A stretch of 23,618 bases of DNA from a virus: positions 1-23,618 of IMG/VR virus record IMGVR_UViG_3300042197_000047. One strand, written 5' to 3'. Under the pieces are notes generated by a model. That model ran no database searches, was not told where the DNA came from, and saw only the letters and a program-made list of their open reading frames with translations. Both the position numbers and the translations under genes were made by a program. Shown in pieces: positions 2,637 through 21,250 of this stretch (its first letter is position 1; each line of letters starts with the position of its first letter).

Positions 2637-5600
2637 CTATTTTATCTTTTGTTTTAACAATTCTACCTCTTCAGAAAGCTCTTGTATAGCCTTTACAAGC
2701 GGAGCTATGAATTGGTTATAGTCAATGTTTTGAATGTTTCTTGCGTCGGGGACGATGATTGTTTCATCGTCATCTGTGATCGATTCTACTTCGTCTGCAA
2801 CAAAACCATGCAGCCTTGAAGCTGGATGCGCGTTCTTGCGATACACAATCGGCTTTAATTGATTGATCCAACTTAACCCTCTCGTCTCTGGTTGTATGTC
2901 GTGCTTTGTGGTTCTGTCAGAAACGGCGGCAAGATATGTGATCAAAATCTCATTGACATTTCCGTAATACAAATCAACTGTTGTGATCGAATTTGATGTC
3001 GTGAAATACAAACCACCGCTTGTATTTGTATTCATCGCCGTTAAAGTGCCGCCAGCCCTTGGCTGATAACCAAAAAAAGATGAACCTCTAGCTGCGGTTG
3101 CAAACGATGGTATTGCGCTTGTGACAGTTACCGCGCTGCCGACTGTGCTGACAGAAATGCCAACGCCGGCAGAAACGCTAGACACAGCTCCAGAAGCGCC
3201 GGTAGGGCCCGTCGCTCCGGTTCCGCCCGTAGGCCCGGTAGGTCCAGTCGGCCCTACAGCTCCCGCTGCCGCCCAAGTTCCGTCATTTCTTAAAAAGGTA
3301 GATGTACTACCCGCTGGCGCTGCAATCGTATAGCCATTCCACCTTACAGATATATTTGAATTTAATTCAAATGTCGCGCCACTAAAAAATCCAGATCTAG
3401 AATTTGCGTCACCAGATGCAACAGTGCCAACAATGGCTTTAGTGCCCGCTCCCGTCGCTAACGCGTATATCGCCTGAGAATTGCTTCCTCCGCTTGCCCT
3501 CGTTTCTAAAGATGTTCCGTTATACGAATTGACGAAATATCCAGCCAAAGCCGCCGAATTGTTTCCGTAAGCCTCGACGCCTTTACCAATCCCAGCAGAA
3601 GCCCTTACCGCAGACGATGAATATGTGGACGCAGAAACTCCATAACCAGTATCTGATTCAGCTTCAATAGCAGCGGACACACCTTTAACCGAAATACCAA
3701 GGTCTTGTGAAAACTGCGAGTTGATAGCAACCGCAGGTTCCCCGCTTGATCCTGTTGAGGCTCCCTCAAACCTCGCAAGCCCCCGCGAATAAACACGATT
3801 GACGACAGCCGCGCCAGAATCTTTGTCTAAATACCATCCAGCAGTTCCTGCGTTCCATCCCGTAACAGTCCATCCGGTAACAGAGACAGGGAACGTCGTG
3901 CTTAATGTGATGGTATAAGTCCCCGTCAATCCTGAGCCGGTTCCAAACGCAGAAACAGTTCCAAAATATTCAATGCCTTGCGTGTAGTTGTAAGCATACA
4001 AAACCATGCCGACAGATATTCGACCCGTGGTAACCGCCGTAACGGTCATCGTGCTTGAGGTTGTTCCCGAGGTAAAGTTTGCTGAGAACTGTGCGAACGG
4101 CGGTACGCCTCCGTTCCAATTGTCTGACAGGATTGATTGAAAGACATTAAATGCAACCGGTGTCTGCCATGTTGTTATATTTGTCGACGGAGAGTAACTG
4201 CCGTAAGAAGCCCAAATCGTCTGCCCGACAACAATTGTTGGCATGGTTGCAGTCCAACCAGAAGGGACAGAAGAAGATCCGCTTGTTGGAGCTGGGGTCG
4301 CTGGGTAACCTAGCGTTTGGCTTTGCTGAAGGAATACAATTCTTTGAACATCCACGGAAGAACCGGTGGGGCCAGAAGCCCCGGTCGGACCTGTCGGGCC
4401 GGCACCCCCGGTGGGGCCTGTTGGGCCAACCGCTGAAGTCGGAGACCATACAAAAGCAGATGACGTTGCCGACCTAACAAGGCTTACATCATTACCTACC
4501 AAGAACCCAAAGTAATAAGTATCTGGCGCTAAATTGACATCTGTAAAAGTGTAAGTTGACGCATTGGTAAATGTTGCGCCGTTAATAAGCTGGGCAATAT
4601 TCCAAAGTTTCCAATCCGTGTCAGCAGGTGTCGCAACCGTTGTGTAGTACAAGCCTATTCTCGTGCATCTTCCTGTAGCGGGTATCGTGCAAACAACATC
4701 AAAAGTTGGTGGTTGCTGCGAAGGCTGAGCGTTTGTAACGGTAGGAGCGTTTGCCGCTGAAATGTAGCCGGCAGAAGGAAGCTGAGAATTCGGAGCGGCG
4801 GTAAACGCTGTAATATTTGCATCGTCATAAACAACAGCGTTGTATTCGGAAAGTTCTAACGTAGCACCTAGGTTGCCATCATCAACTGTCGCCTCCGAGA
4901 CTTTCATAACTCGGAAGAGTTTGTTCGTCCAACCGTAGTCTGCGTTAGTAATATCAACGACATCGCCAGCATCCACTTGGATGCCAGGATAAGTAGAGGT
5001 AATCGTAACGATTAGATCTTCTCGTGCTTGTTCAAGCCTTCTGTTTCCTAGATATTGGGCTTGTACAGAGTCGTTCGTAAACTCTAGTGTTGTGGTCTGT
5101 CTGTTAGCTGGTTCATTGGGATACAAAAGCCCAGCCGGGGTTTCCATGTAAACAAGATCAGGTTGGTCTCTGTTTAGCTTCGACGGAAACTCAATCTGAA
5201 TCTGGTTGATCTGCTGATTTATATCGACAGCAGAAACCCTGATTTCACCGATAAGATTTGTATCGTTAAATGAGAAAGTAGAGGATTCTGCTTTATTGAT
5301 GACGATTGACCAAAGACCTGATGCCGCGTTATATGCCATCCAAGAATCGCAGCACTCAAGCATCTTCTCAACGTTATCAAGAACGGGTTTTCCGGTGTCA
5401 ACCACCCCGTTGATTCTGTATCGAGCTTGTGTTGCAGACCCTCCGCCGGCTGGCGTATAGGTGATGGTCTGATCCGAGTAAGTATTAAGAGCGGTTGCGC
5501 TTGTAGAGTCAACCAATCCCGTCATGCCAGCGCCGTAGCGAGCGTCTGTCATGTAGTCGTACCAAACATCTCCAGGCTTAGCCACGCTACCGCCTTTAGG

Positions 5601-6260
5601 GTAGTGCGAGCAATAAAAAGTTATTGGGAGGAGTCCAGTCGTTCCCGCGTCTGAGTTGTAAACCAGTTTAACTATTGCAAAAGCCAAACCGTTCATCTGC
5701 CGACCAGATGAAGGCCAACGTAACGCGGCGGCAATATCTGCCCCTCCCATCGTTACATGGGGAGCGGTTCCATTGACCGCAGTTATGGTTCCTGCATTTG
5801 TCGACGTGTAAAGACTGATATAAAGATTACCGCTGATCTTTGTATCTACATTTCCATCGCCATCAGTAAGCGAAACAACCTTTGTTTGGTCGGTTCCGTC
5901 AAAAGTAACCAATCTGTCGCCGTAGTAAAACTTTGTACGGTCGTAGGAAAATGTTGCGGATGCGTCGGACGATATGGAAGAGATCGCCATAACGTAATAC
6001 ATTGTCTTTTGATCGGTGGATAGCACCGCGTCGACAAACGTACCGCCCAACCACGCGTCGCCATACACCACGGGAATTGAGTTGTTGTTAGCAGGAGGAA
6101 CTTGCTGTCTTGCACCTGTGTCTTGTGACTGCGGAGGCTTAGATCCAAATGCCCTGGTAACAACAAACGATACCGCAAAGTTGATGGCAAACGTCGCCGC
6201 TGCTAACGCAACGCCCGTTAACTGAACACCTACTGCGGCTAAGATAATGGATGCTGGCAT
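2637..6260 (-). CDS. Tail tip / host-specificity protein (J-like) with collagen inserts and peptidase S74 domain
   Basis: A 1207-residue central tail-tip protein, expected at the distal end of the tail and involved in host contact. Residues 1-35 are hydrophobic, as is common in this family. About 40-480 form the J-like hub region (IPVVYGDAWLGG near the start; LGNRRLEQAREDLIVTI near 410). A fibronectin-III-like segment follows near 505-600. Collagen-like GPTGPTG tracts lie at about 611-633 and 1000-1024. The C-terminus (from about 1112) is a peptidase S74 intramolecular chaperone: Ser1114 and Lys1119 in SDRTTK match the family's autocleavage dyad, and GFVADEVES matches its GF-A-EV motif. A short coiled coil ends the protein. 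It starts at ATG three bases after the GNAT gene stop. Trimerisation and self-cleavage are inferred from the family. Confidence 0.88.
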   Translation of the reverse strand: MPASIILAAVGVQLTGVALAAATFAINFAVSFVVTRAFGSKPPQSQDTGARQQVPPANNNSIPVVYGDAWLGGTFVDAVLSTDQKTMYYVMAISSISSDASATFSYDRTKFYYGDRLVTFDGTDQTKVVSLTDGDGNVDTKISGNLYISLYTSTNAGTITAVNGTAPHVTMGGADIAAALRWPSSGRQMNGLAFAIVKLVYNSDAGTTGLLPITFYCSHYPKGGSVAKPGDVWYDYMTDARYGAGMTGLVDSTSATALNTYSDQTITYTPAGGGSATQARYRINGVVDTGKPVLDNVEKMLECCDSWMAYNAASGLWSIVINKAESSTFSFNDTNLIGEIRVSAVDINQQINQIQIEFPSKLNRDQPDLVYMETPAGLLYPNEPANRQTTTLEFTNDSVQAQYLGNRRLEQAREDLIVTITSTYPGIQVDAGDVVDITNADYGWTNKLFRVMKVSEATVDDGNLGATLELSEYNAVVYDDANITAFTAAPNSQLPSAGYISAANAPTVTNAQPSQQPPTFDVVCTIPATGRCTRIGLYYTTVATPADTDWKLWNIAQLINGATFTNASTYTFTDVNLAPDTYYFGFLVGNDVSLVRSATSSAFVWSPTSAVGPTGPTGGAGPTGPTGASGPTGSSVDVQRIVFLQQSQTLGYPATPAPTSGSSSVPSGWTATMPTIVVGQTIWASYGSYSPSTNITTWQTPVAFNVFQSILSDNWNGGVPPFAQFSANFTSGTTSSTMTVTAVTTGRISVGMVLYAYNYTQGIEYFGTVSAFGTGSGLTGTYTITLSTTFPVSVTGWTVTGWNAGTAGWYLDKDSGAAVVNRVYSRGLARFEGASTGSSGEPAVAINSQFSQDLGISVKGVSAAIEAESDTGYGVSASTYSSSAVRASAGIGKGVEAYGNNSAALAGYFVNSYNGTSLETRASGGSNSQAIYALATGAGTKAIVGTVASGDANSRSGFFSGATFELNSNISVRWNGYTIAAPAGSTSTFLRNDGTWAAAGAVGPTGPTGPTGGTGATGPTGASGAVSSVSAGVGISVSTVGSAVTVTSAIPSFATAARGSSFFGYQPRAGGTLTAMNTNTSGGLYFTTSNSITTVDLYYGNVNEILITYLAAVSDRTTKHDIQPETRGLSWINQLKPIVYRKNAHPASRLHGFVADEVESITDDDETIIVPDARNIQNIDYNQFIAPLVKAIQELSEEVELLKQKIK

Positions 6261-6263
6261 GAT

Positions 6264-6701
6264 CTACTCTCGAAAGAAGGTCGCTTGCATAGGCTTAAAG
6301 TTGTATCTTGTGTAATCAATATTGGGTGAATTTGGCATAAGACTTGTGCATACAATCTGTACCCGTTTTTGATTTAGCATGTCTTGTGCGAGCTTGTTAA
6401 ATCTTAACCAGAGCTTTCCACCAACAGATGTATCTCTGAATTCTGGTTCAACCCACCACGCCACCTCATGGAGCTCTTTTACCGAACTGTTCCAAAAGTT
6501 TCGCGTCACATAAGCCGCCAAGAACCCTCGAAACTGATCGTCAATAAGCACAAAACCTCGACCCTTTATCATTTCGTAGAACAGTTCCTTGACATGCTCT
6601 TCGTTTTGGTTTTGTTTTAGCGTCTCTATTCCTGCTTCATCTGCGTAAGCCTTCATCATCTCAATAAGATGCGGCATATCGTATTTTGTGGCGTATCTCA
6701 T
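6264..6701 (-). CDS. GNAT-fold N-acetyltransferase-like protein in the tail cluster
   Basis: A 145-residue protein with GNAT hallmarks. The N-terminus MRYATKYDMPHLIEMM resembles strand 1/helix 1. VLIDDQFRGFLAAYV is the central hairpin. Motif A is at about 80-100, where AWWVEPEFRDTSVGGKLW contains the R-x-x-x-V-G-G acetyl-CoA loop. The end (NIDYTRYNFKPMQATFFR) resembles motif B. GNAT enzymes move an acetyl group from acetyl-CoA to amines; the substrate here is unknown. The gene lies between the L/DUF2163-like and J-like genes, where lambda has K (NlpC/P60 peptidase) and I, neither of which is visible here. Its ATG overlaps the TGA of the upstream gene. It could modify a host or virion protein, or be a structural use of the fold; the sequence does not decide. 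Confidence 0.75.
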   Translation of the reverse strand: MRYATKYDMPHLIEMMKAYADEAGIETLKQNQNEEHVKELFYEMIKGRGFVLIDDQFRGFLAAYVTRNFWNSSVKELHEVAWWVEPEFRDTSVGGKLWLRFNKLAQDMLNQKRVQIVCTSLMPNSPNIDYTRYNFKPMQATFFRE

Positions 6702-12279: not shown

Positions 12280-12620
12280 CAGACCGCAACCGTCGGTTCG
12301 TTACGGTAACAAGTAAACGTTACCCACTGTCTATCGTCGTGTTCGTAAACCTCAGCAATCCGCCAAGACTTCTCACGGAAAGAAATACTGTAAGCCTCTT
12401 GAGCATCCGAGATCGTACGCATGTTAGGCGTGTAATTCACGGTGAACTCAATCATGTTGTCGTACTGCCGAAACTTCTCAAGCGTTCGAATTCGGTTATG
12501 CACAGATTTCGTTTTTGCTCGCGTCTGGAACCATGCGGTCTCCGTCGTTGTCTGCTCGCCAAGATTGGTAAGACCAAACGTCAGATTATTGATGGTGATT
12601 TGATCGACGCGTAAAACCAT
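12279..12620 (-). CDS. Head closure / head-tail joining protein
   Basis: A 113-residue, beta-rich protein. The C-terminal segment FREKSWRIAEVYEHDDRQWV then TFTCYR follows the pattern of phage head-tail joining proteins (SPP1 gp16/HK97 gp7-like stopper fold), in which a short strand is followed by a charged turn and an aromatic-rich strand. These proteins close the portal channel and receive the tail. Junctions with both neighbours overlap by a single base (TAATG upstream, TGATG downstream), pointing to stop-start coupling. Confidence 0.65.
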   Translation of the reverse strand: MVLRVDQITINNLTFGLTNLGEQTTTETAWFQTRAKTKSVHNRIRTLEKFRQYDNMIEFTVNYTPNMRTISDAQEAYSISFREKSWRIAEVYEHDDRQWVTFTCYRNEPTVAV

Positions 12621-13264
12621 TACATCACCAGCGTTTTGTAAGGTCTCAACAACTGGTCAATCGCCCACGGAAGCTGATACTGCTTAGCCTCGGAGATTGC
12701 AGAACGGTTATTGTAGAAATGCGTGAGAAGCATGAGACCGGCTTGCTTGACCACCGGATACTGACCAATAACGCTGCCCTGTAGTGTGTACTGGCAAAGC
12801 ATCGGAGCGGTCATGTAAGTATTGACGTTATTGGGAACCTCGAACAAAACCAACTTGTTTCCTGTCGGGTCATAGTAATACTGCGAGCTTGCAATTGTTG
12901 TTAGAACCGGCGGATTTAGGTCGTTGTAATACTTAACCCAGTTGATCGTGACTCCATTCTGCGAGACCTCGGGAAGATCTAAAGACACCGGAGCCGCCAT
13001 CAAGCCAGAAATTAAATAGGAAGCCTGATACGTCACATTGAAGATTGGAACACCCAAATAATCCTCAATTGCCATGCGTGTAGCCAACTCAAGCTGAGAC
13101 AGGAATTCATCCTGCGATTCATCAGCAAAGAGATTGAGTTGGTTGGTGATTTCGTCGAGCGTAAGCCATTGGGTAACCGGATCGCGGTTACTTTGAATGA
13201 CCTTCGAGTAGTTGAACGGGTTGCGAGAACCCGCGCCGAAATTACCTTGTAGCTGGCTTGGCAT
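12620..13264 (-). CDS. Head-tail connector (adaptor) protein, gp6-like
   Basis: A 214-residue protein. WLTLDEITNQLNLFADESQD and the following ATRMAIEDYLGVPI are the two-helix signature of the HK97 gp6/SPP1 gp15-type adaptor (phage gp6-like connector), which forms a ring below the portal. The rest is beta-rich, then an amphipathic helix (AGLMLLTHFYNNRSAI) ends with a partner-binding tail (LPWAIDQLLRPYKTL). This LL-P-Y ending is common in the family. It begins one base after the second capsid gene's TGA. The size is above the shortest family members, mainly through an N-terminal extension. Confidence 0.8.
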   Translation of the reverse strand: MPSQLQGNFGAGSRNPFNYSKVIQSNRDPVTQWLTLDEITNQLNLFADESQDEFLSQLELATRMAIEDYLGVPIFNVTYQASYLISGLMAAPVSLDLPEVSQNGVTINWVKYYNDLNPPVLTTIASSQYYYDPTGNKLVLFEVPNNVNTYMTAPMLCQYTLQGSVIGQYPVVKQAGLMLLTHFYNNRSAISEAKQYQLPWAIDQLLRPYKTLVM

Positions 13265-13265
13265 A

Positions 13266-14294
13266 TCAAGTTCCGATCAAACGAACACCAGCGGTTACAT
13301 CACGAACCGTCGAGACCATACGCTTTTCGGCGTAGATCGTGATAGTTCCGGGCTGCGTTTGCTCCATTCTCTGAAGCGTTATTTCCGAATGATCGACGAT
13401 CCACATAAAGCGCGGCCAATTTGCTAAATAAATAGGAGAAGCGCCGACAGCGGGAGCATCCAAGTATGGATTAGCAATGACCGGCCAGCCCATGATGTTT
13501 ACCGCTGGGCCTTGATCAGCTTCACCCGTTTCTAAGAGAGCGTAAAAATTGCCAGCATTCAAAAATTTACGAAGCGTTTGGATTGCGGTGGGGTGCATCA
13601 TCCAAGCAGTCCCTGGCATTCTCCAGAACTGCCCAGGAAGGGCATTAGCAACGTCTACAAGCGCATTCCAATCTAATCCGCCGCTATGGGTGTAGCCGAC
13701 AGTATTAAGCGTGTGGATGCCGTTTGTGATTGCCGTACCAGACGAACCATAAGCAGCAGTAGAACCCGCAGTTCCCGCGTACATCTTAAGACCACGCAGA
13801 CCATTAGTCGCGCCTGTGCTTGTAGTGGTCGATCCAGCTTGATCGTTATTAATTGCCATAGACGCGGCTTCGATCTGGCTAAATTCCATCGCAAGATCTT
13901 CAGCAAGAGCAGCATCAAGACCGTTGATGTCATCCATCGCGGCCGCGCGGATAGGCATCTGCGCCGAGATAACGCGCATTGGAAGTTGCCAAATGCTTGT
14001 GGCGATATTGGGCGAGCCGCTGTTAGCGTTGACCGTGTATCCCCAGGGATTTGTAGAGTTAGCCGCGTTACCAGTTTTAACCGTGAACTGAATGTCTGAA
14101 TCCGCAGTCATCGTTTGGTTAGCGTAAACGCGGAAAGGGTTCCAGTAACGCAGACTTGCAAATACATCTTCGTTGAATACTCGGCCACCAACGCCGGAGC
14201 CCGAGCCAGTGAGGGCTGAGGCTTCAGCGAGGTTAACCGTGGCTTTGCCCTCATGAAGAGCCTTTTTCAAGCCTTCCAAAATTACCTGTCTCAT
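13266..14294 (-). CDS. Second HK97-fold major capsid paralogue (no delta domain)
   Basis: A 342-residue HK97-fold capsid protein. It aligns along its length with residues about 108-449 of the upstream capsid gene: EASALTGSG/VGGR, FTVKTGNA/WGYTV, IATSIWQ, PIRAAAMDDINGLD, INNDQAG, GLRGLKMYAG and TITIYAEKRMVSTVRDVTAGVR all have counterparts. It lacks the N-terminal coiled-coil scaffold domain, having only a short MRQVILEGLKKALHEGKATV leader. It could be a minor or vertex protein or a second shell subunit. The ATG follows a GGAGAG site. The gene begins 39 bases after the first capsid gene. No frameshift or broken motif was noticed. Confidence 0.88.
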   Translation of the reverse strand: MRQVILEGLKKALHEGKATVNLAEASALTGSGSGVGGRVFNEDVFASLRYWNPFRVYANQTMTADSDIQFTVKTGNAANSTNPWGYTVNANSGSPNIATSIWQLPMRVISAQMPIRAAAMDDINGLDAALAEDLAMEFSQIEAASMAINNDQAGSTTTSTGATNGLRGLKMYAGTAGSTAAYGSSGTAITNGIHTLNTVGYTHSGGLDWNALVDVANALPGQFWRMPGTAWMMHPTAIQTLRKFLNAGNFYALLETGEADQGPAVNIMGWPVIANPYLDAPAVGASPIYLANWPRFMWIVDHSEITLQRMEQTQPGTITIYAEKRMVSTVRDVTAGVRLIGT

Positions 14295-14297
14295 AGT

Positions 14298-14329
14298 CTC
14301 TCCAAAGAGGGAGAGGGCTTGCGCCCTCT
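14298..14329 (-). promoter_or_regulatory. Mutually exclusive hairpins between the two capsid genes
   Basis: On the minus strand, AGAGGGC (14329-14323) pairs perfectly with GCCCTCT (14318-14312) around a GCAA (GNRA) tetraloop. Alternatively CTCTCC (14315-14310) pairs perfectly with GGAGAG (14303-14298), which is the Shine-Dalgarno sequence of the second capsid gene. The two stems share 14312-14315 and cannot coexist. The first stem starts four bases after the TAA of the first capsid gene, so a terminating ribosome would affect it. The first stem lacks a good T run. Control of relative capsid amounts is inferred. Confidence 0.55.
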
Positions 14330-14333
14330 TAAA

Positions 14334-15683
14334 TTAAGCCGCAGTACCGGTCGAGCGATAACGTACACCGGCGTTAGGATCGCGCACAGAAGTTGCCGCG
14401 CGGGTCTCGCCGTAGAACGTGATCGAGCCTGGGAGCGTCTGGTCATAACGACGCAGAACCATGCTCAAACGCATGACAATGGTGTGGAACTGCTGGAAGT
14501 CAGCAAAGTACATGGGGTAATAAGACGTTGTACCTGCTGCGCCGGTCGTGGGCTGGCTGGGATTGTCAACGTACTTGTTAACCACCACATCAAAGCCGAG
14601 CAACTTGCCAACGATGCCATCATCGCGGCTAAGACCGTCGATGTAGATTGGGCGCTTCTGATCGTCAACCAAGCCGCGAATGCCTTGCAACAAGATTGGG
14701 TTAATCATGAAGCGAGCGGTTGGTGTCCAGTACTGCTGCGGCAAGCTGTAGATGAAGTTAACAACGTCTTTGTAGACAATGTTATTTGCACCGACAGTGT
14801 TCGCGTTAGTGGTCAACTGGTCATACGTTGCCAAGCTGTGCAGACCGTTGGTCGTTGCAGTTCCAGAGGTTCCAAATGCTGCCGTGGAAACAGTGCCGCC
14901 CGTGTAGGTTGCATTTGCTCCAGCGTACTGATCCAAACCACGCAGACCGTCAGCGCCGCCAGTCGATACCGAGGTTCCGGTTCCCGATTGATCGTTGTTC
15001 TGAATCATCGAGGTTGCCATTGCCTGCTGGAATTCCATCAGCATATCGTCAACAACGTTGGGCTCAAGACCGTCAATATCGTCGAGCGCAGCGGTTCTGA
15101 TTGGGAACTGTGCGTTCAAGTCTTTGAGGATCACCTGCCAGATTGACGTTGCTTCAGTCGTGCTTGCGCCGTTGTTCTGAACGGTGTAACCCCACTGAGC
15201 GCCAGCGTTACCGGTCTTGACGCGGAACTGATAAGCCGAACCGTCGGTAGCAACGATGCGGGAAAGATCCATCATTGGATTTCCGAGACGCTTAGCAGCA
15301 AACACGGGGTCATAAGCGGTACGGCCACCAACATCGTAGCCTGAGCCGGTAAGCGCAGATGCCTCGCGGATGTAACCGTCAAACTGATCCACCGATTCAA
15401 AGATCTTAACTTCGCGCTCGACCTGATTGCCGCCCTTCATGTACTCTTTGAGCACATCGCGGAAGCGACGATTTGCCTCACCACGAACAGTCTTGTGGAT
15501 TGGGCGGATGATGGAAGGAGCACCGATCTTTGCTTCTAAAGCAGCGATCTTTTGCTCGGTTTCCGTTTTAAGGGTTTCTACAGCTTCGTTAACTTGAGTC
15601 TTTACAGCCTCAGCGGTTTCAGCGAGTTTTGCAGCGTTAGACGCTTCGATTGCGTCTAGTTTTTCAATGACTTTCTCAAGCAT
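14334..15683 (-). CDS. Major capsid protein, HK97 family, with N-terminal delta domain
   Basis: A 449-residue HK97-fold capsid subunit. Residues 1-55 are a charged coiled coil (LEKVIEKLDAIEASNAAKLA), followed by a basic linker to about 108. Together they form the delta domain that scaffolds assembly and is normally removed by the prohead protease. The shell domain starts near REASALTGSGYDVGG and ends with TLPGSITFYGETRAATSVRD and RYRSTG. There is no separate scaffold gene, as is normal for HK97-like phages. The ATG follows AAAGGA. The protease gene stop lies ten bases upstream. Processing is inferred; I cannot place the cleavage point. Confidence 0.93.
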   Translation of the reverse strand: MLEKVIEKLDAIEASNAAKLAETAEAVKTQVNEAVETLKTETEQKIAALEAKIGAPSIIRPIHKTVRGEANRRFRDVLKEYMKGGNQVEREVKIFESVDQFDGYIREASALTGSGYDVGGRTAYDPVFAAKRLGNPMMDLSRIVATDGSAYQFRVKTGNAGAQWGYTVQNNGASTTEATSIWQVILKDLNAQFPIRTAALDDIDGLEPNVVDDMLMEFQQAMATSMIQNNDQSGTGTSVSTGGADGLRGLDQYAGANATYTGGTVSTAAFGTSGTATTNGLHSLATYDQLTTNANTVGANNIVYKDVVNFIYSLPQQYWTPTARFMINPILLQGIRGLVDDQKRPIYIDGLSRDDGIVGKLLGFDVVVNKYVDNPSQPTTGAAGTTSYYPMYFADFQQFHTIVMRLSMVLRRYDQTLPGSITFYGETRAATSVRDPNAGVRYRSTGTAA

Positions 15684-15693
15684 GATAGTTCCT

Positions 15694-16458
15694 TTATCGG
15701 GTTGCGATTGCCTTTAGCAGCTCGCGGTATTGGAGCGCTTCCAGCAGTTTCACCGCTGCGTCCGAATCACTCGGTTGAGCGGGTTGCTTTGCAGATTCAG
15801 CATCACGCTGTTCAATAATCTGTTTCAGCAGCGCGGATGCAGCGGTTGCATCCTTTCTTGAAAGCCCTGCATCACGCAGTGCCTTCTCGATTACTCTTGG
15901 ATTAGGTTTGTTGTCCATCCAATATTCAAGTCGGCTTATTTCAGCCTTGGGATTGTTAGGGTTCATGACAATCGAAACCTCCGCCAATCCGCCCTTCATG
16001 ATCTGAAAGAAACCGTCAGGGTCATCTGTTGGCTCGCCGTTTTCATCGACCATCTGGTATTCGTCGGCATAAGCTCCGACAGAAACCCCACCAACCATGC
16101 GCGGCGATTCCTTCATGATCGTATAAAGATCAGACCCCGCTGTGGTATTCAGAAACAGTTTTCCGGTTCCCGTCATGCCTTCGTCAGTAATGTCGAATTT
16201 TGACCATTCGCCTACGGGCATCATGTCGGAGCTGTGCTGAAAGTACATGGGAAGCGGTCTGCCGGCTTCCATCCAGTTTTCGTGCCACATCTCAAAAGCT
16301 GCTGGCGTGTAAAAGAATCTGCGCCCGTCTGCGCCTTCTCTCGCGCCCCAGGTTGTCAAGGTCGCCTCAATTTCGCCTGTAGGCTCGCCCGTTGCCTCGT
16401 CAGCCATGCGGCCAAGCTCAACCTTTGCCTCGGTGAAAAATTGAATGTGCTTAGCCAT
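15694..16458 (-). CDS. Prohead protease (HK97 family)
   Basis: A 254-residue protease that would remove the capsid delta domain and itself during head maturation. The likely catalytic His75 lies in MYFQHSSDMMPVGEW, Ser126 in VGGVSVGAY, and the conserved GGLAEVSIVMNP motif is at 157-167. These are the expected landmarks of the HK97-type (U35) fold, in the right order. The C-terminal third is a helical, Gln/Ala-rich region that may be trimmed. The frame opens earlier, at 16488, but the ATG at 16458 has AAAGGA eight bases upstream and was preferred. The stop precedes the capsid ATG by ten bases. Confidence 0.9.
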   Translation of the reverse strand: MAKHIQFFTEAKVELGRMADEATGEPTGEIEATLTTWGAREGADGRRFFYTPAAFEMWHENWMEAGRPLPMYFQHSSDMMPVGEWSKFDITDEGMTGTGKLFLNTTAGSDLYTIMKESPRMVGGVSVGAYADEYQMVDENGEPTDDPDGFFQIMKGGLAEVSIVMNPNNPKAEISRLEYWMDNKPNPRVIEKALRDAGLSRKDATAASALLKQIIEQRDAESAKQPAQPSDSDAAVKLLEALQYRELLKAIATR

Positions 16459-16558
16459 TGATAGGTTCCTTTTGTTGCATTTTGCCATCCACGGGTTTTG
16501 GCTGCGGCTTCCTCTTTTCCGCCGCAGCTTTTAACCGCTCCAAAACATCCTTAAGCAT
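16451..16558 (-). CDS. Small ORF (35 aa) bridging portal and protease genes
   Basis: This ORF encodes a 35-residue, strongly charged peptide starting MLKDVLERLKAAAEKRK, then PQPKPVDG. The ATG overlaps the portal gene's end by eight bases (ATGCTTAA). The TAA overlaps the chosen protease start by eight bases (ATGGCTAA). A GGAAG lies about 9 bases upstream of the ATG. It fills an otherwise uncoding gap and follows the window's overlap style. The first half is likely an amphipathic helix. No family is recognised. It may instead be an incidental frame through an intergenic spacer. Confidence 0.5.
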   Translation of the reverse strand: MLKDVLERLKAAAEKRKPQPKPVDGKMQQKEPING

Positions 16559-17948
16559 TACCAGCTCTTCCGGTCTTGCCCACTACTTTAAGATTTCCGC
16601 CGCCGCCCGTATCCTTTGGCGAGCTGCCGGCAATAGGCTTATCAGCGCCAGTGGGAGTAAGCAGAGAATCAGCATCATCCAAACTATTAAGCCCCAGATA
16701 TTCCCTGGCTTCATTCGGCGTAAGAATCCCATTCTTTACCCCTGCAACCGCATAATTCATCTGATCCAGAGGAGCGCCCTTTAAGAAATCTTGCGTCTGG
16801 AACTGAACAAACAAATTCGGATAACCGGCTAGCAGACTTGTCTTTAACTTCTGCTCAATATTGGTGATAAAGGGCATCATCGTCGACTTATAAAACTCGT
16901 CGAGCATCGTCTGAGTATTGTTGTACTTAGACTCAGATACACCAATCATTGCCGGCGGCACACCAAACAAACCGGCAATTCTTGCCATCGTCTGTTTCTT
17001 TAATTCTCGTGCGTCTACGTCTTGCAAGGTCAAAGGCTTAATACTTTCGTACATCATACCTTGGTCTAAGAGCATAGACTGCCCAGGCTTAGAAAGATCC
17101 GATGGCTGGCTGTTAAGCATGTTCGTCCATGCCTCTTTTAGCCTTGCAGCAATCTCTTTGAACTTGGAATCAGGAATTACTTGCTCTGTACGGAACAAGC
17201 CAGAAGGCTTTGCGCCGTTCAACATAATGAAATTACTGTACAAGTCGATGTCTTGGTCTAGCGAGATTAGCTCGACAGCTTGCAAGCGGTTGAAAGACGA
17301 AGAACCCTGCCAAGGCTCCGACTTGCAGTGCATAACCTGGAAGTATTTGAGCGGTTCGTCTTTGTTAAAGCCGTAACTTGAGCTTGTAAGCGTGTAGTAA
17401 GGGTATCTATTCTCAGAGATACGCGGAACAATCAGCGTCGAGTCTAAAACGTAGATCTCAAACGGAATCTGATTAGGATCGGCCTCGTTTTTACGCCAAA
17501 GTAATACGAAAGTCTCACCGGCTAACTCATGCCACATCGTGAACTGATACCAGAACTCGTACTGGCTTTGAAAGTTATTCGGCTGAGAAAGAAGGTTAAG
17601 AATCGACTTAGCCCGAGTTTTTTCACGCTCGGGAACCGATTCATCCGTTTGGGTATCGACTAAAGTACCGTCATTCTGCCGAGACATGATCTTGATCGGC
17701 AATTGAGACAGAGCCCGAGCCTTAGCCCCCACGCAAGCCATGACTGTGCTATTGCGAGCAAGCGTTGTGATGTCTAAAGAGCGTCCAGCCTCGTTGACAG
17801 CAGAGGTGGTTACATAGAGAAGTTGATTAGATCCGTAGCCCTGCCCCTTGCCTCGAAGCATGACGTTGTTACCCAAAACCGTGTTGCCGAACAACGAATT
17901 CGACTCATTTTGGGTTGTTTTCTTGCGGAATCTGTCAAATATGCCCAT
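16551..17948 (-). CDS. Portal protein, HK97 family
   Basis: A 465-residue portal, the dodecameric ring at the packaging vertex. The N-terminus (MGIFDRFRKKTTQN) is the standard HK97-type beginning. DITTLARNSTVMACVGAKAR and ARALSQLPIKIM are the conserved clip/stem region. The C-terminal half has MARIAGLFGVPPAMIGVSES, a family signature, and NGILTPNEAREYLGL. The C-terminal tail is Gly-rich. The frame has an earlier TTG overlapping the terminase TGA, but the ATG at 17948 has GAGG six bases upstream and gives the usual family start. The terminase stop lies eight bases upstream. Confidence 0.93.
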   Translation of the reverse strand: MGIFDRFRKKTTQNESNSLFGNTVLGNNVMLRGKGQGYGSNQLLYVTTSAVNEAGRSLDITTLARNSTVMACVGAKARALSQLPIKIMSRQNDGTLVDTQTDESVPEREKTRAKSILNLLSQPNNFQSQYEFWYQFTMWHELAGETFVLLWRKNEADPNQIPFEIYVLDSTLIVPRISENRYPYYTLTSSSYGFNKDEPLKYFQVMHCKSEPWQGSSSFNRLQAVELISLDQDIDLYSNFIMLNGAKPSGLFRTEQVIPDSKFKEIAARLKEAWTNMLNSQPSDLSKPGQSMLLDQGMMYESIKPLTLQDVDARELKKQTMARIAGLFGVPPAMIGVSESKYNNTQTMLDEFYKSTMMPFITNIEQKLKTSLLAGYPNLFVQFQTQDFLKGAPLDQMNYAVAGVKNGILTPNEAREYLGLNSLDDADSLLTPTGADKPIAGSSPKDTGGGGNLKVVGKTGRAGNA

Positions 17949-17956
17949 TTTTAGCC

Positions 17957-19615
17957 TCAAAAGACTCTGAATCCATACGATTCAGATGGTGCGGGATTAT
18001 CAAGCGAACAGTGCATCGCAATAATGAGGGCAACGATCCCGTCGACCTTAGCGTGGCGGTCAACTCCGGCCTTTTTGACCTTGATGTTGCCTTGCACATC
18101 TGTAAACACTTCACAGTTTCCCAGTTGGTGGCCTAAAAACGGGTTACCATCGTGTTTGATTTTGTGACCAAGAATAAGCCGTTCTACATGCTTAGAAGGG
18201 TTGGAAAGTACCGCCATTCCTTGCCCAACTTTTTTAACCGGCATTCCAGCTTCGTATAATCGCGCAACCAGCGCAGCCGCATTATATGCGTCGTAGCCAA
18301 CCTCACGAACGTCGTATTTCTGGCTTTGTCCCAGAATATACTCTGAAATCTCACGATCGTCCATCACATTGCCTTCGGTGATGTGCAAAATGCCTGAATT
18401 GATCGCTTGTCGGAAAATATCTTGATAGTGAGCTGGCAATAAATCAAAACCGTCTTCAGGCAAAAAGAACTTCCACTCGGCTTCGTAATCATCCTCAGCA
18501 AATCGCTTAAGCGTACAAACCGCGTTTAAATCTCGGGTTGCCGCCAAGTCAAAACCAATAAACACGGCCTCGGGTTCTCTATCCGTCAGACCGACAGCTT
18601 CATCCCAATGCGAACGATCTACCCACGCGGTTTCTGCCGAGACATAGACGTTAAGGGTTTTGCAGAGGAACTCATTTAATGCCGCCGGCTTAATCTTGGC
18701 TTCCTCACATCGAGCGGCAATCGCATCGTGTGAGACCGAGATATTGTGCATGGGGTTTGCCTTATGCCAGACCGTCGGGTCTCGCCAATCGTCGCCAGCA
18801 TCCAAGGAATACAAAAGCCCAAACCATCGCGGGTTATCAGGAACGTCCTGGTGAAGAATATGCTCCATCACCTGAAGGTCTTCAAAGAACTTCGTGTCGC
18901 GCGTAAAGCTGGCCGTGGTTATGTATAGACGAAGCGGATTGGCTCGTGCCACCATACCCGAATGCAAGACCTCAATCGTATTCCTGTCGATGATCTGCGA
19001 AGCCTCGTCAATAATCGCGCAAGAAGGGTTGAGCCCGTCACCCGTACGCTTGGTATCCCGCGAGAGCGCTTTGAACACCGACTGAGAGTCGCCATTCTTC
19101 ACTATCGTGAACTTGCCAGGGATAAAGAGACCGGAGATTTCTCGAGGGAGGGTTTCGATAAATCCCTTGGCAGTAGTAAAGACGATGCTTGCCTGATCTC
19201 GATTAGTAGCGACTGTGTAAACCTCTGCGCCAGCATCGCCAAAGGCGAGCTCGTAAAGAGCGATCAAAGCGGTAAGCGTTGACTTGCCAGCCTTACGCGG
19301 GATGTAAACGATTACATCCTGAACCATCCGTTTAGAACGATCCCGCTTAAGACGGAACCCGTAGATCGCGCAGACTATAAGAATCTGGAAGGGCTCAAGA
19401 TTGACTTGCTGCCCTGCCCACTGACCCTTTACATGCCGGCAAAGACTTGTGAATTGCAGGAAGTGATTAATCTGCGCTGGATCAAATACCCATTCCCACT
19501 CTTTGTTTTCTAGGTGGTTAAGAAACCGCTGGCAAGCAAGCCTCACATTCCTGCAAGCATTAATGTCGCCTTTAGCGACAGAGACAGCGTATTCGATCCC
19601 ATCTTCTATTCTCAT
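17957..19615 (-). CDS. Terminase large subunit (HK97-type)
   Basis: A 552-residue packaging motor that would move phage DNA into proheads and cut it. The ATPase part has Walker A PRKAGKST (106-113), Walker B CAIIDE (199-204) and a coupling motif YITTAS (231-236). The RNase H-like nuclease part has three acidic positions: Asp356 in IGFDLAATRDL, Asp442 in GYDAYNAA and Asp525 in KVDGIVAL. This composition matches the HK97/Terminase_1 group, generally cos-packaging. An ATGA overlap links it to the small subunit gene. No intein or break is seen. Confidence 0.95.
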   Translation of the reverse strand: MRIEDGIEYAVSVAKGDINACRNVRLACQRFLNHLENKEWEWVFDPAQINHFLQFTSLCRHVKGQWAGQQVNLEPFQILIVCAIYGFRLKRDRSKRMVQDVIVYIPRKAGKSTLTALIALYELAFGDAGAEVYTVATNRDQASIVFTTAKGFIETLPREISGLFIPGKFTIVKNGDSQSVFKALSRDTKRTGDGLNPSCAIIDEASQIIDRNTIEVLHSGMVARANPLRLYITTASFTRDTKFFEDLQVMEHILHQDVPDNPRWFGLLYSLDAGDDWRDPTVWHKANPMHNISVSHDAIAARCEEAKIKPAALNEFLCKTLNVYVSAETAWVDRSHWDEAVGLTDREPEAVFIGFDLAATRDLNAVCTLKRFAEDDYEAEWKFFLPEDGFDLLPAHYQDIFRQAINSGILHITEGNVMDDREISEYILGQSQKYDVREVGYDAYNAAALVARLYEAGMPVKKVGQGMAVLSNPSKHVERLILGHKIKHDGNPFLGHQLGNCEVFTDVQGNIKVKKAGVDRHAKVDGIVALIIAMHCSLDNPAPSESYGFRVF

Positions 19616-20085
19616 GTTCCGAATTTAGGACCGGACAGGAACTCACCCATCTTGCTGCCATCCTCAAGTTTGTTCGCGGCCAACCTCGAGCGCGGCGTTA
19701 AGCCCATCTCGTTCATAAGTTTGACTGCATTCTCCATCGCTTTGTTTGCAAGCGATATGTAAGGATTGGGAGCGTGAGTTTTTCCACCGTTAGTCTTTAC
19801 CACCAGCGGATGCTTGGCCTGTTCTTTCCTTGCGTCGATATAAAGCTGCACTTGATCTGCAAGCATCATCAGCGTGTGGCGGTCTTGATCTGATCCGATC
19901 CCGTAGACGGTAAACAGATAGTCAGCAGTCTCACGAACGAATCGTTCTCGACTAAATAAAGTCGGATCGTCCGCCCACTCAGCGAAGGGTACGCGGATCT
20001 TGATTTTCTCGGGTAACGGTACGCCAGTGTTCTCGCCCTTTGTGCCGTGTACCAGATGTACCTCAGGTGGATATTTCCTCTGCAT
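19612..20085 (-). CDS. Terminase small subunit, P27 family
   Basis: A 157-residue DNA-recognition partner of the large terminase. The C-terminal half carries the P27-family pattern: KHPLVVKTNGGK, then APNPYISLANKAMENAVKL and GLTPRSRLA. The N-terminal region (RKYPPEVHLVHGTKGENTG) is also typical of the group. The frame could start at 20139, but the ATG at 20085 has GAGG seven or so bases upstream. This start overlaps the methyltransferase gene's end by 23 bases. It should bind near the packaging start site, which I could not locate. Confidence 0.88.
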   Translation of the reverse strand: MQRKYPPEVHLVHGTKGENTGVPLPEKIKIRVPFAEWADDPTLFSRERFVRETADYLFTVYGIGSDQDRHTLMMLADQVQLYIDARKEQAKHPLVVKTNGGKTHAPNPYISLANKAMENAVKLMNEMGLTPRSRLAANKLEDGSKMGEFLSGPKFGT

Positions 20086-21250
20086 TTTCAAGCCTCGCTT
20101 TTTGTCCAGTAAATTCTTCCCATCGCTTAACGATGACATCGCAGTATTTTGGGTCTAGTTCCATCATCCGACAAGAGCGCCCTGTTTTCTCGCAAGCAAT
20201 CAGCGTTGAACCTGAACCACCAAATCCGTCGTAAACAATATGTTTAGAAGGATTGTCTGTCATGGCCATTTCTATCAACTCTACAGGCTTCATCGTTGGA
20301 TGAACCGTGTTTTTCTGCCTTTTAAGAGTCCATACATCCCCTCTTAAAGTTTTATGGCCTCCGTAATCGCCATAGTAAAAAATAATTTCATGCTGTTTGA
20401 AATATTTGTCTAAGTGTTGAGCCGGATTAACTTTGTTCCAAACAATCATTGCTTTTGGTTTTCGAGCGATATTTATCATCGCCTCCCTAAACAAATGCGC
20501 GTAATGCCAAGAACAACACACGTACATAACCTCACAGCCCATCAAAGACTGGCTTAAAAAATCAACAAATTCACTATCGGGCATCTTGTCATTTTTAATT
20601 TTTTCTCTTTTGTCTTTTACCCCTTGATAGTCAATGTTGTAAGGCGGATCAGTAAACACCATGTCAGCCTTATCGCCGTTCATCAGCTTTTCCACCGCAT
20701 CTACGCTCGTACTATCACCGCACATAAGCCTATGCTTGCCTAGTATCCAAATATCCCCAGGCTTGGTAATAGGTTCTGGCGGAGGTTCGGGCACAGCATC
20801 TTCGTCGGTAAAACCTTCGTTCACAACCTCCGGCCTTAGCGCGTTTCTTTCCTCTTCGCCAAAACCAACCAGATCTAAATCCACGCCCTCAAGCTCCAAC
20901 TCCTCTAACTCGAGGTTTAAAAGCTCCGCATCCCAACCTGCATTTAACGCTAGTTTGTTGTCAGCAAGGATCAGCGCTTTCTTTTGCGTTTCTGACAGGT
21001 GGGTTATTTCTATCACCGGAACTTCTTCCATGCCGAGCTTCCGCGCCGCGGCCAATCTTCCGTGGCCAGCAATCAATCCCTTCTCGCCATCAACCAAGAT
21101 CGGGTTCGTCCAACCAAACTCTTTGATCGACGCAGCGATCTGCGCGACTTGCGCGTCTGAGTGCGTTCTTGCGTTTCTTGCGTAAGGGGTGAGATCCCCC
21201 ACGCGAGTCATGACCACGCGGGGAATTCCCTGTTTTTTTAAGCTACCCAA
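20063..21250 (-). CDS. ParB-domain / N6-adenine DNA methyltransferase fusion
   Basis: A 395-residue protein. Residues about 15-110 form a ParB/Srx-like domain (ARNARTHSDAQVAQIAASI; GLIAGHGRLAAARKLG). A Glu/Leu-rich linker and Pro-rich stretch (PEPPPEPITKPG) lead to the methyltransferase: DPPY at 201-204 (motif IV), HPTMKP at 317-322 and the AdoMet-binding DGFGGSGS at 341-348. Motif IV before motif I marks the beta class of adenine N6 enzymes. It would methylate adenines in phage or host DNA; target site unknown. A TTG start has AAAGGA nine bases upstream; ATG at 21211 is the alternative. It lies between the HNH and terminase genes, so it may protect the genome from host restriction or influence packaging. 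Confidence 0.9.
   Translation of the reverse strand: MGSLKKQGIPRVVMTRVGDLTPYARNARTHSDAQVAQIAASIKEFGWTNPILVDGEKGLIAGHGRLAAARKLGMEEVPVIEITHLSETQKKALILADNKLALNAGWDAELLNLELEELELEGVDLDLVGFGEEERNALRPEVVNEGFTDEDAVPEPPPEPITKPGDIWILGKHRLMCGDSTSVDAVEKLMNGDKADMVFTDPPYNIDYQGVKDKREKIKNDKMPDSEFVDFLSQSLMGCEVMYVCCSWHYAHLFREAMINIARKPKAMIVWNKVNPAQHLDKYFKQHEIIFYYGDYGGHKTLRGDVWTLKRQKNTVHPTMKPVELIEMAMTDNPSKHIVYDGFGGSGSTLIACEKTGRSCRMMELDPKYCDVIVKRWEEFTGQKARLENAEEIST

Follow-up and report, generated by a model that had tools for sequence, protein, structure and literature searches.

Tandem HK97-type capsid genes in a group of aquatic phages, and a possible vertex role for the shorter paralogue

Introduction

Does a phage that encodes two HK97-type capsid proteins in tandem, only one of them with a built-in scaffold, use both of them in its head, and what would then be the place of the second one? 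The question is raised by a 23.6 kb fragment, IMG/VR record IMGVR_UViG_3300042197_000047, positions 1 to 23,618, which we refer to as the window. In 2025, T4 was called the single virus with a paralogous two-protein HK97 capsid (PMC12407261). Our partial coverage of the literature yielded no paper describing the pair reported here, termed P1 and P2, and an earlier mention is possible.

Gene layout of the locus

The window contains a minus-strand head-tail module that consists of the small and large terminase, portal, S78 prohead protease, P1, P2, connector and tail genes. The sequence-only reading had placed two tandem capsid genes in this region, and both reading frames were found exactly there. 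The features of the head region are as follows.

16551-17960, minus strand: portal protein (PF04860, E 1.6e-57)
15694-16488, minus strand: prohead serine protease (S78), directly upstream of P1 (PF04586, E 1e-9)
14334-15683, minus strand: P1, full-length HK97-type major capsid protein, 449 aa (PF05065, E 2.6e-22; TIGR01554, E 1.8e-26)
15366-15683, minus strand: P1 residues 1-106, delta-type scaffold region with long predicted helices (low-confidence AF2 helices; absent from all P2 proteins)
15339-15365, minus strand: P1 residues 107-115, EASALTGSG, the delta/N-arm junction (E-x-S-x-L-T is kept in both paralogues)
14484-14777, minus strand: P1 residues 303-400, approximate A-domain (from regional identity, with limits inferred from the P2 model)
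13266-14294, minus strand: P2, short, scaffold-less HK97-fold capsid paralogue, 342 aa (PF05065, E 2.9e-20; TIGR01554; AF2)
14226-14294, minus strand: P2 residues 1-23, conserved short leader helix (alignment; AF2 helix 2-15)
14199-14225, minus strand: P2 residues 24-32, EASALTGSG, the same junction motif as in P1 (alignment)
12620-13264, minus strand: head-tail connector (Ad1/gp6-like), beginning right after P2 (phrog_40 and phrog_442)

The spacing between P2 and the connector gene is a single base. Neither the Rfam nor the tRNA scan gave a match in the window. Adjoining the terminase genes is a gene that joins a ParB-like nuclease/partition domain to a DNA methyltransferase (20063-21250, minus strand). 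The tail module includes an acetyltransferase-like gene (6264-6701, minus strand; phrog_1249). Collagen-like GPTGPTG repeats occur in two tail fibre proteins (9-2102 and 2637-6260, minus strand), the larger of which ends in a Peptidase_S74 chaperone domain.

P1 and P2 are HK97-type capsid proteins

Both proteins belong to the HK97-type capsid family (PF05065/TIGR01554). The Pfam Phage_capsid model scored 80 bits for P1 and 73 bits for P2 against a curated cut-off of 24.2, NCBIfam TIGR01554 scored 93 and 65 bits against a cut-off of 27.5, and both proteins matched PHROG 10, 'major head protein'. These matches bear out the earlier assignment of the HK97 fold to both proteins, and the shared motifs on which it was based are indeed present. 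In a BLASTP comparison the two shell domains were 41% identical over 348 columns (E 9e-65), and the two paralogues have 62 conserved alignment positions in common.

Single-sequence searches of the PDB gave no convincing match. The AF2 model of P2 (pLDDT 67) displays the spine helix, the P-domain strands and the A-domain of the HK97 fold. In a Foldseek search of the PDB it was closest to 6tb9, the GTA capsid of R. capsulatus (E 1.1e-12), with HK97 prohead I at E 3.5e-10. The P1 model was of low confidence (pLDDT 46), too poor for a fold comparison. It contains helices at residues 2-53, 66-83 and 98-110, and the first of these is consistent with a coiled-coil scaffold.

The TIGR01554 alignment runs from model position 10 to 381 in P1 (residues 7-440), which has an N-terminal delta scaffold and an adjoining S78 protease, but starts only at model position 87 in P2 (residues 10-337, model 87-381). 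P2 is without approximately the first 86 model positions, which is the delta region. The earlier proposal that the short copy has lost its scaffold domain is therefore correct for the delta region, but part of the sequence ahead of the shell domain remains in P2: a conserved leader of 24-35 residues, predicted to form a helix at residues 2-15, which aligns with the final part of the P1 delta region. The EASALTGSG junction is probably the neighbourhood of the maturation cleavage. We also considered co-variation of the P1 and P2 junction motifs as evidence for a shared protease. With 28 pairs the best three of 176 columns were those of the junction, but the signal weakened with 68 pairs, and locus L328 provides a counter-example (ESSALT in P1 and EAAGLQ in P2). 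Our claim about the junction motif is limited to its conservation in both paralogues.

The pair is retained throughout the group

Relatives of either protein were taken from viral contigs and genomes, with some contigs present under more than one locus identifier. P1 was followed by P2 in 123 of the first 135 loci; the other twelve were contig ends, except L131, which carries frameshifts in several genes. A diverse set gave clean pairs in 41 of 46 loci, the remainder being L224, where P2 lies in two overlapping frames, and four single genes at contig ends. Among 96 further loci there were 89 clean pairs, two loci with P1 split by a frameshift and five single genes at contig ends. Once near-identical pairs had been removed, 68 non-redundant pairs remained, and the gene order was the same in every uninterrupted relative examined (these 68 pairs, hundreds of contigs). 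Frameshifts in one or both capsid genes of L131, L224, L297 and L343 are most simply explained as sequencing errors and were not scored as gene loss.

The sequence-only reading would have been contradicted by relatives in which the short copy is absent or pseudogenised. Each apparent absence turned out to be a contig end or a frameshifted contig, and no relative without P2 was found among the best 80 loci per scan in four viral-contig profile scans and one genome scan. The phages carrying the pair make up a large and mostly uncultured group, in which both genes have long been retained.

The only cultured phage found with the pair is Methylophilaceae phage P19250A, which has a genome of 38.7 kb; the contigs of several relatives are about 35-39 kb long. 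P1 of the window is 58-60% identical to gene 0005 of P19250A and P2 is 54-55% identical to gene 0006, compared with only about 42% between P1 and P2. The P19250A record labels gene 0005 'gene transfer agent capsid protein' and gene 0006 'hypothetical protein', and neither this record nor the related literature that we found mentions that the two are paralogous. The label 'hypothetical' overlooks a capsid gene that is conserved in many aquatic phages.

In the tree, P1 and P2 proteins are reciprocally monophyletic, with a support of 100/100 for the separating branch, and hence they derive from a single old duplication that predates the group. The duplication could not be rooted, as no single-gene outgroup was reached. 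In the window clade the dN/dS ratios were 0.058 for P1 and 0.046 for P2; other clades gave 0.10 and 0.16, respectively. P2 is functional and, with a dN/dS of about 0.05 in the window clade, under strong purifying selection.

Several loci have peculiarities of their own. In nine of them, which form one sub-lineage (L269, L271, L272, L274, L278, L279, L280, L282 and L327) P2 carries an extra N-terminal domain of about 100 residues, which matches phrog_2859 (unknown function; E 1.4e-22) and is fused just ahead of the usual leader, for example at L269:4692-6017. The gap between P1 and P2 is enlarged to about 344 nt in L331, and it includes a stretch of Cys-rich coding potential that is possibly an inserted HNH-like element. 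The capsid pair also occurs on the phage contig L250 (JAHEYD010000010), which was binned in a MAG labelled Candidatus Nitrosotalea. This archaeal binning is probably contamination, and the host is uncertain.

A hairpin separates the two genes

The short region between P1 and P2 contains the following elements.

14295-14333, minus strand: P1-P2 gap, 39 nt
14312-14329, minus strand: terminator-like GC hairpin AGAGGGC-GCAA-GCCCTCT with a weak T-rich tail behind it (comparison with relatives)
14300-14303, minus strand: GGAG, Shine-Dalgarno-like site of P2 (sequence)

The hairpin of the window taken by itself is not significant (z -1.2 against dinucleotide shuffles), and the T run is weak across the window clade. 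The claim of a conserved terminator-like hairpin is therefore based on the comparison among relatives. We required at least six base pairs, at least four of them G-C, within 60 bases. By this criterion, P1 is followed by a hairpin in 67 of the 68 non-redundant pairs, with 10.0 expected from dinucleotide shuffles, and by a hairpin with a T-rich tail in 65 of 68, with 2.6 expected. In the control regions, a hairpin with a T run was present in 5 of 65 cases in the 60 bases after P2 and in none of 28 before P1. The stem sequences vary among lineages, so that the structure is kept while the sequence is not. In 17 of 28 representative loci this hairpin was the top-scoring terminator-like element on the coding strand. 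It would probably stop a fraction of transcription once the abundant major capsid mRNA has been made, and so lower the expression of P2 and of everything downstream. In phage T7, a terminator likewise follows the capsid gene.

The paralogues diverge most in the A-domain

The identity between P1 and P2, expressed relative to the identity within each paralogue, is 0.67 for the N-arm, E-loop, P-domain and spine, and 0.50 for the A-domain region. Dividing the alignment into halves gave 0.67 versus 0.55 (p 0.008 in a column permutation that ignores phylogeny). The A-domain is well conserved among the P1 proteins (0.72), whereas conservation in this region is lower among the P2 proteins (0.51). The elements that P2 keeps, namely the N-arm, the E-loop and the P-domain, make the contacts between capsomers. 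The ring of a capsomer in HK97-fold shells is formed by the A-domains, which make the contacts inside the capsomer. A divergence biased towards the A-domain is the pattern expected if P1 and P2 share one lattice and build different rings, but a general relaxation of constraint also predicts it.

The most likely role of P2

We propose, with a probability of roughly 0.55, that P2 is a dedicated minor subunit of the shell, most likely a pentamer (vertex) protein that works in a manner similar to T4 gp24. The head would be built of two HK97-fold proteins that originated in one old duplication. P1, with its delta scaffold, would make the hexamers and thus the bulk of the shell. P2, which would have lost the scaffold but retained the maturation junction, a short leader and every shell element involved in joining one capsomer to another, would be produced in a lower amount owing to the terminator-like hairpin behind P1. 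It would enter the lattice as a minor subunit, most likely as pentamers at the non-portal vertices. For a T=7 shell, which we assume from the genome size of ~35-39 kb, this would correspond to about 360 copies of P1 and 55 of P2.

The vertex option is favoured by the universality of the pair, the constraint on P2, the hairpin, the A-domain divergence and the short, gp24-like leader. The sequence-only reading had suggested, as one of several options, that the shell has two components and that the short copy occupies the pentons. This is upheld as far as a conserved minor structural subunit is concerned, with its location and stoichiometry being our inference. The presence of P2 in the virion, its processing by the S78 protease, its lower copy number and its vertex position are likewise what we would expect from the comparisons above. 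Two points call for caution. The terminator would reduce all the downstream head and tail genes and not P2 alone, and the vertex role is proposed from sequence comparison, a level that gives no measure of pentamer preference.

The full shell fold and the inter-capsomer elements of P2 would also permit its co-assembly with P1 in the same capsomers, as mixed hexamers or an irregular tiling that relies on the P1 scaffold, as in two-component encapsulins. An irregularly tiled shell of two HK97 proteins is documented for the Streptomyces lydicus encapsulin (PMC12407261). We nevertheless find such an arrangement unlikely, as the most divergent part of the two proteins, the A-domain, would need to pack in mixed rings, and the terminator predicts unequal amounts. 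Somewhat less likely still is a structural role off the regular lattice, in which P2 would cement or decorate the shell, serve as an adaptor at the portal vertex or control the size of the head. The P2 gene lies between the major capsid and connector genes, where decoration genes are often found in phage head modules, and the phrog_2859 domain fused to P2 in L269 and its kin would suit such a role. P2 has, however, a complete HK97 shell fold with a conserved N-arm, E-loop and P-domain, which sets it apart from the known cement proteins, and it shares 62 conserved positions with P1. The decoration and size-control roles that the sequence-only reading had also entertained gained no specific support.

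The missing scaffold and the likely lower expression of P2 would fit a protein that serves a different or modified capsid in certain conditions, or an assembly regulator absent from virions. We regard this as improbable, since P2 is retained universally, with not one loss found in the group, and has a low dN/dS, both of which favour an essential part of every virion. That P2 is a non-functional recent duplicate or an assembly artefact has a negligible probability. Apart from the frameshifts in the four loci named above, nothing speaks for it, and it is refuted by the single ancient duplication, the purifying selection and the presence of the pair in the complete genome of a cultured phage.

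For the phage group as a whole, we think it rather probable that these widespread aquatic phages have an obligate two-protein HK97 lattice, in which the scaffold-less paralogue either forms the vertices or is mixed into the capsomers, that this lattice evolved independently as a second instance, and that its subunit ratio is set by the conserved terminator. If true, a second, apparently independent lineage would allow a direct test of how hexamer and pentamer duties are divided after a duplication. The lineage has useful traits in this respect: its genome is small, only one of the paralogues has a built-in scaffold, and one member is in culture.

Comparison with known systems

Genes 0005 and 0006 of P19250A are an orthologous pair in the same order as P1 and P2 of the window. 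HK97 gp5 and the R. capsulatus GTA capsid (6tb9) share with P1 and P2 the fold and the portal-S78 protease-capsid gene order, and they are the best structural and profile matches, but these systems have one capsid gene and not two.

Family 2B encapsulins resemble the pair in having two HK97-fold shell genes in one operon, and the two shell proteins of the Streptomyces lydicus encapsulin have diagnostic A-domain differences (PMC12407261). However, encapsulins are cellular compartments without portal, protease or DNA, and their shell is a randomly mixed, pseudo-icosahedral one. A two-component encapsulin would be expected in a shell operon that has a cargo enzyme and is free of phage morphogenesis genes, but genes for terminase, portal, protease, connector and tail surround P1 and P2.

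The closest parallel in function would be T4 gp23/gp24. Both phages contain two HK97-fold paralogues, the second with a much shorter N-terminal propeptide; in T4 the propeptides are 10 residues in gp24 and 65 in gp23 (PMC9958956). P2 is likewise an HK97-fold paralogue of the major capsid protein, encoded in the same genome and with a shorter propeptide. The T4 proteins differ from P1 and P2 in being about 20% identical, versus 41%, in using a separate scaffold core in place of a built-in delta domain, and in belonging to a phage with a large genome, as opposed to about 35-39 kb. There was no gp24 chain among the PDB profile or phmmer matches of P1 and P2, the closest being GTA/HK97-like capsids, and the profile searches did not hit gp23 either. 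P1 and P2 belong to HK97/GTA-like phages, and the two pairs are likely to have originated independently. In T4, the changes that bypass gp24, with gp23 replacing it at the vertices, map to intra-capsomer contacts of the A-domain (PMC9958956). Differences that matter for the type of capsomer reside in the A-domain in T4, and this is also where the divergence between P1 and P2 is concentrated.
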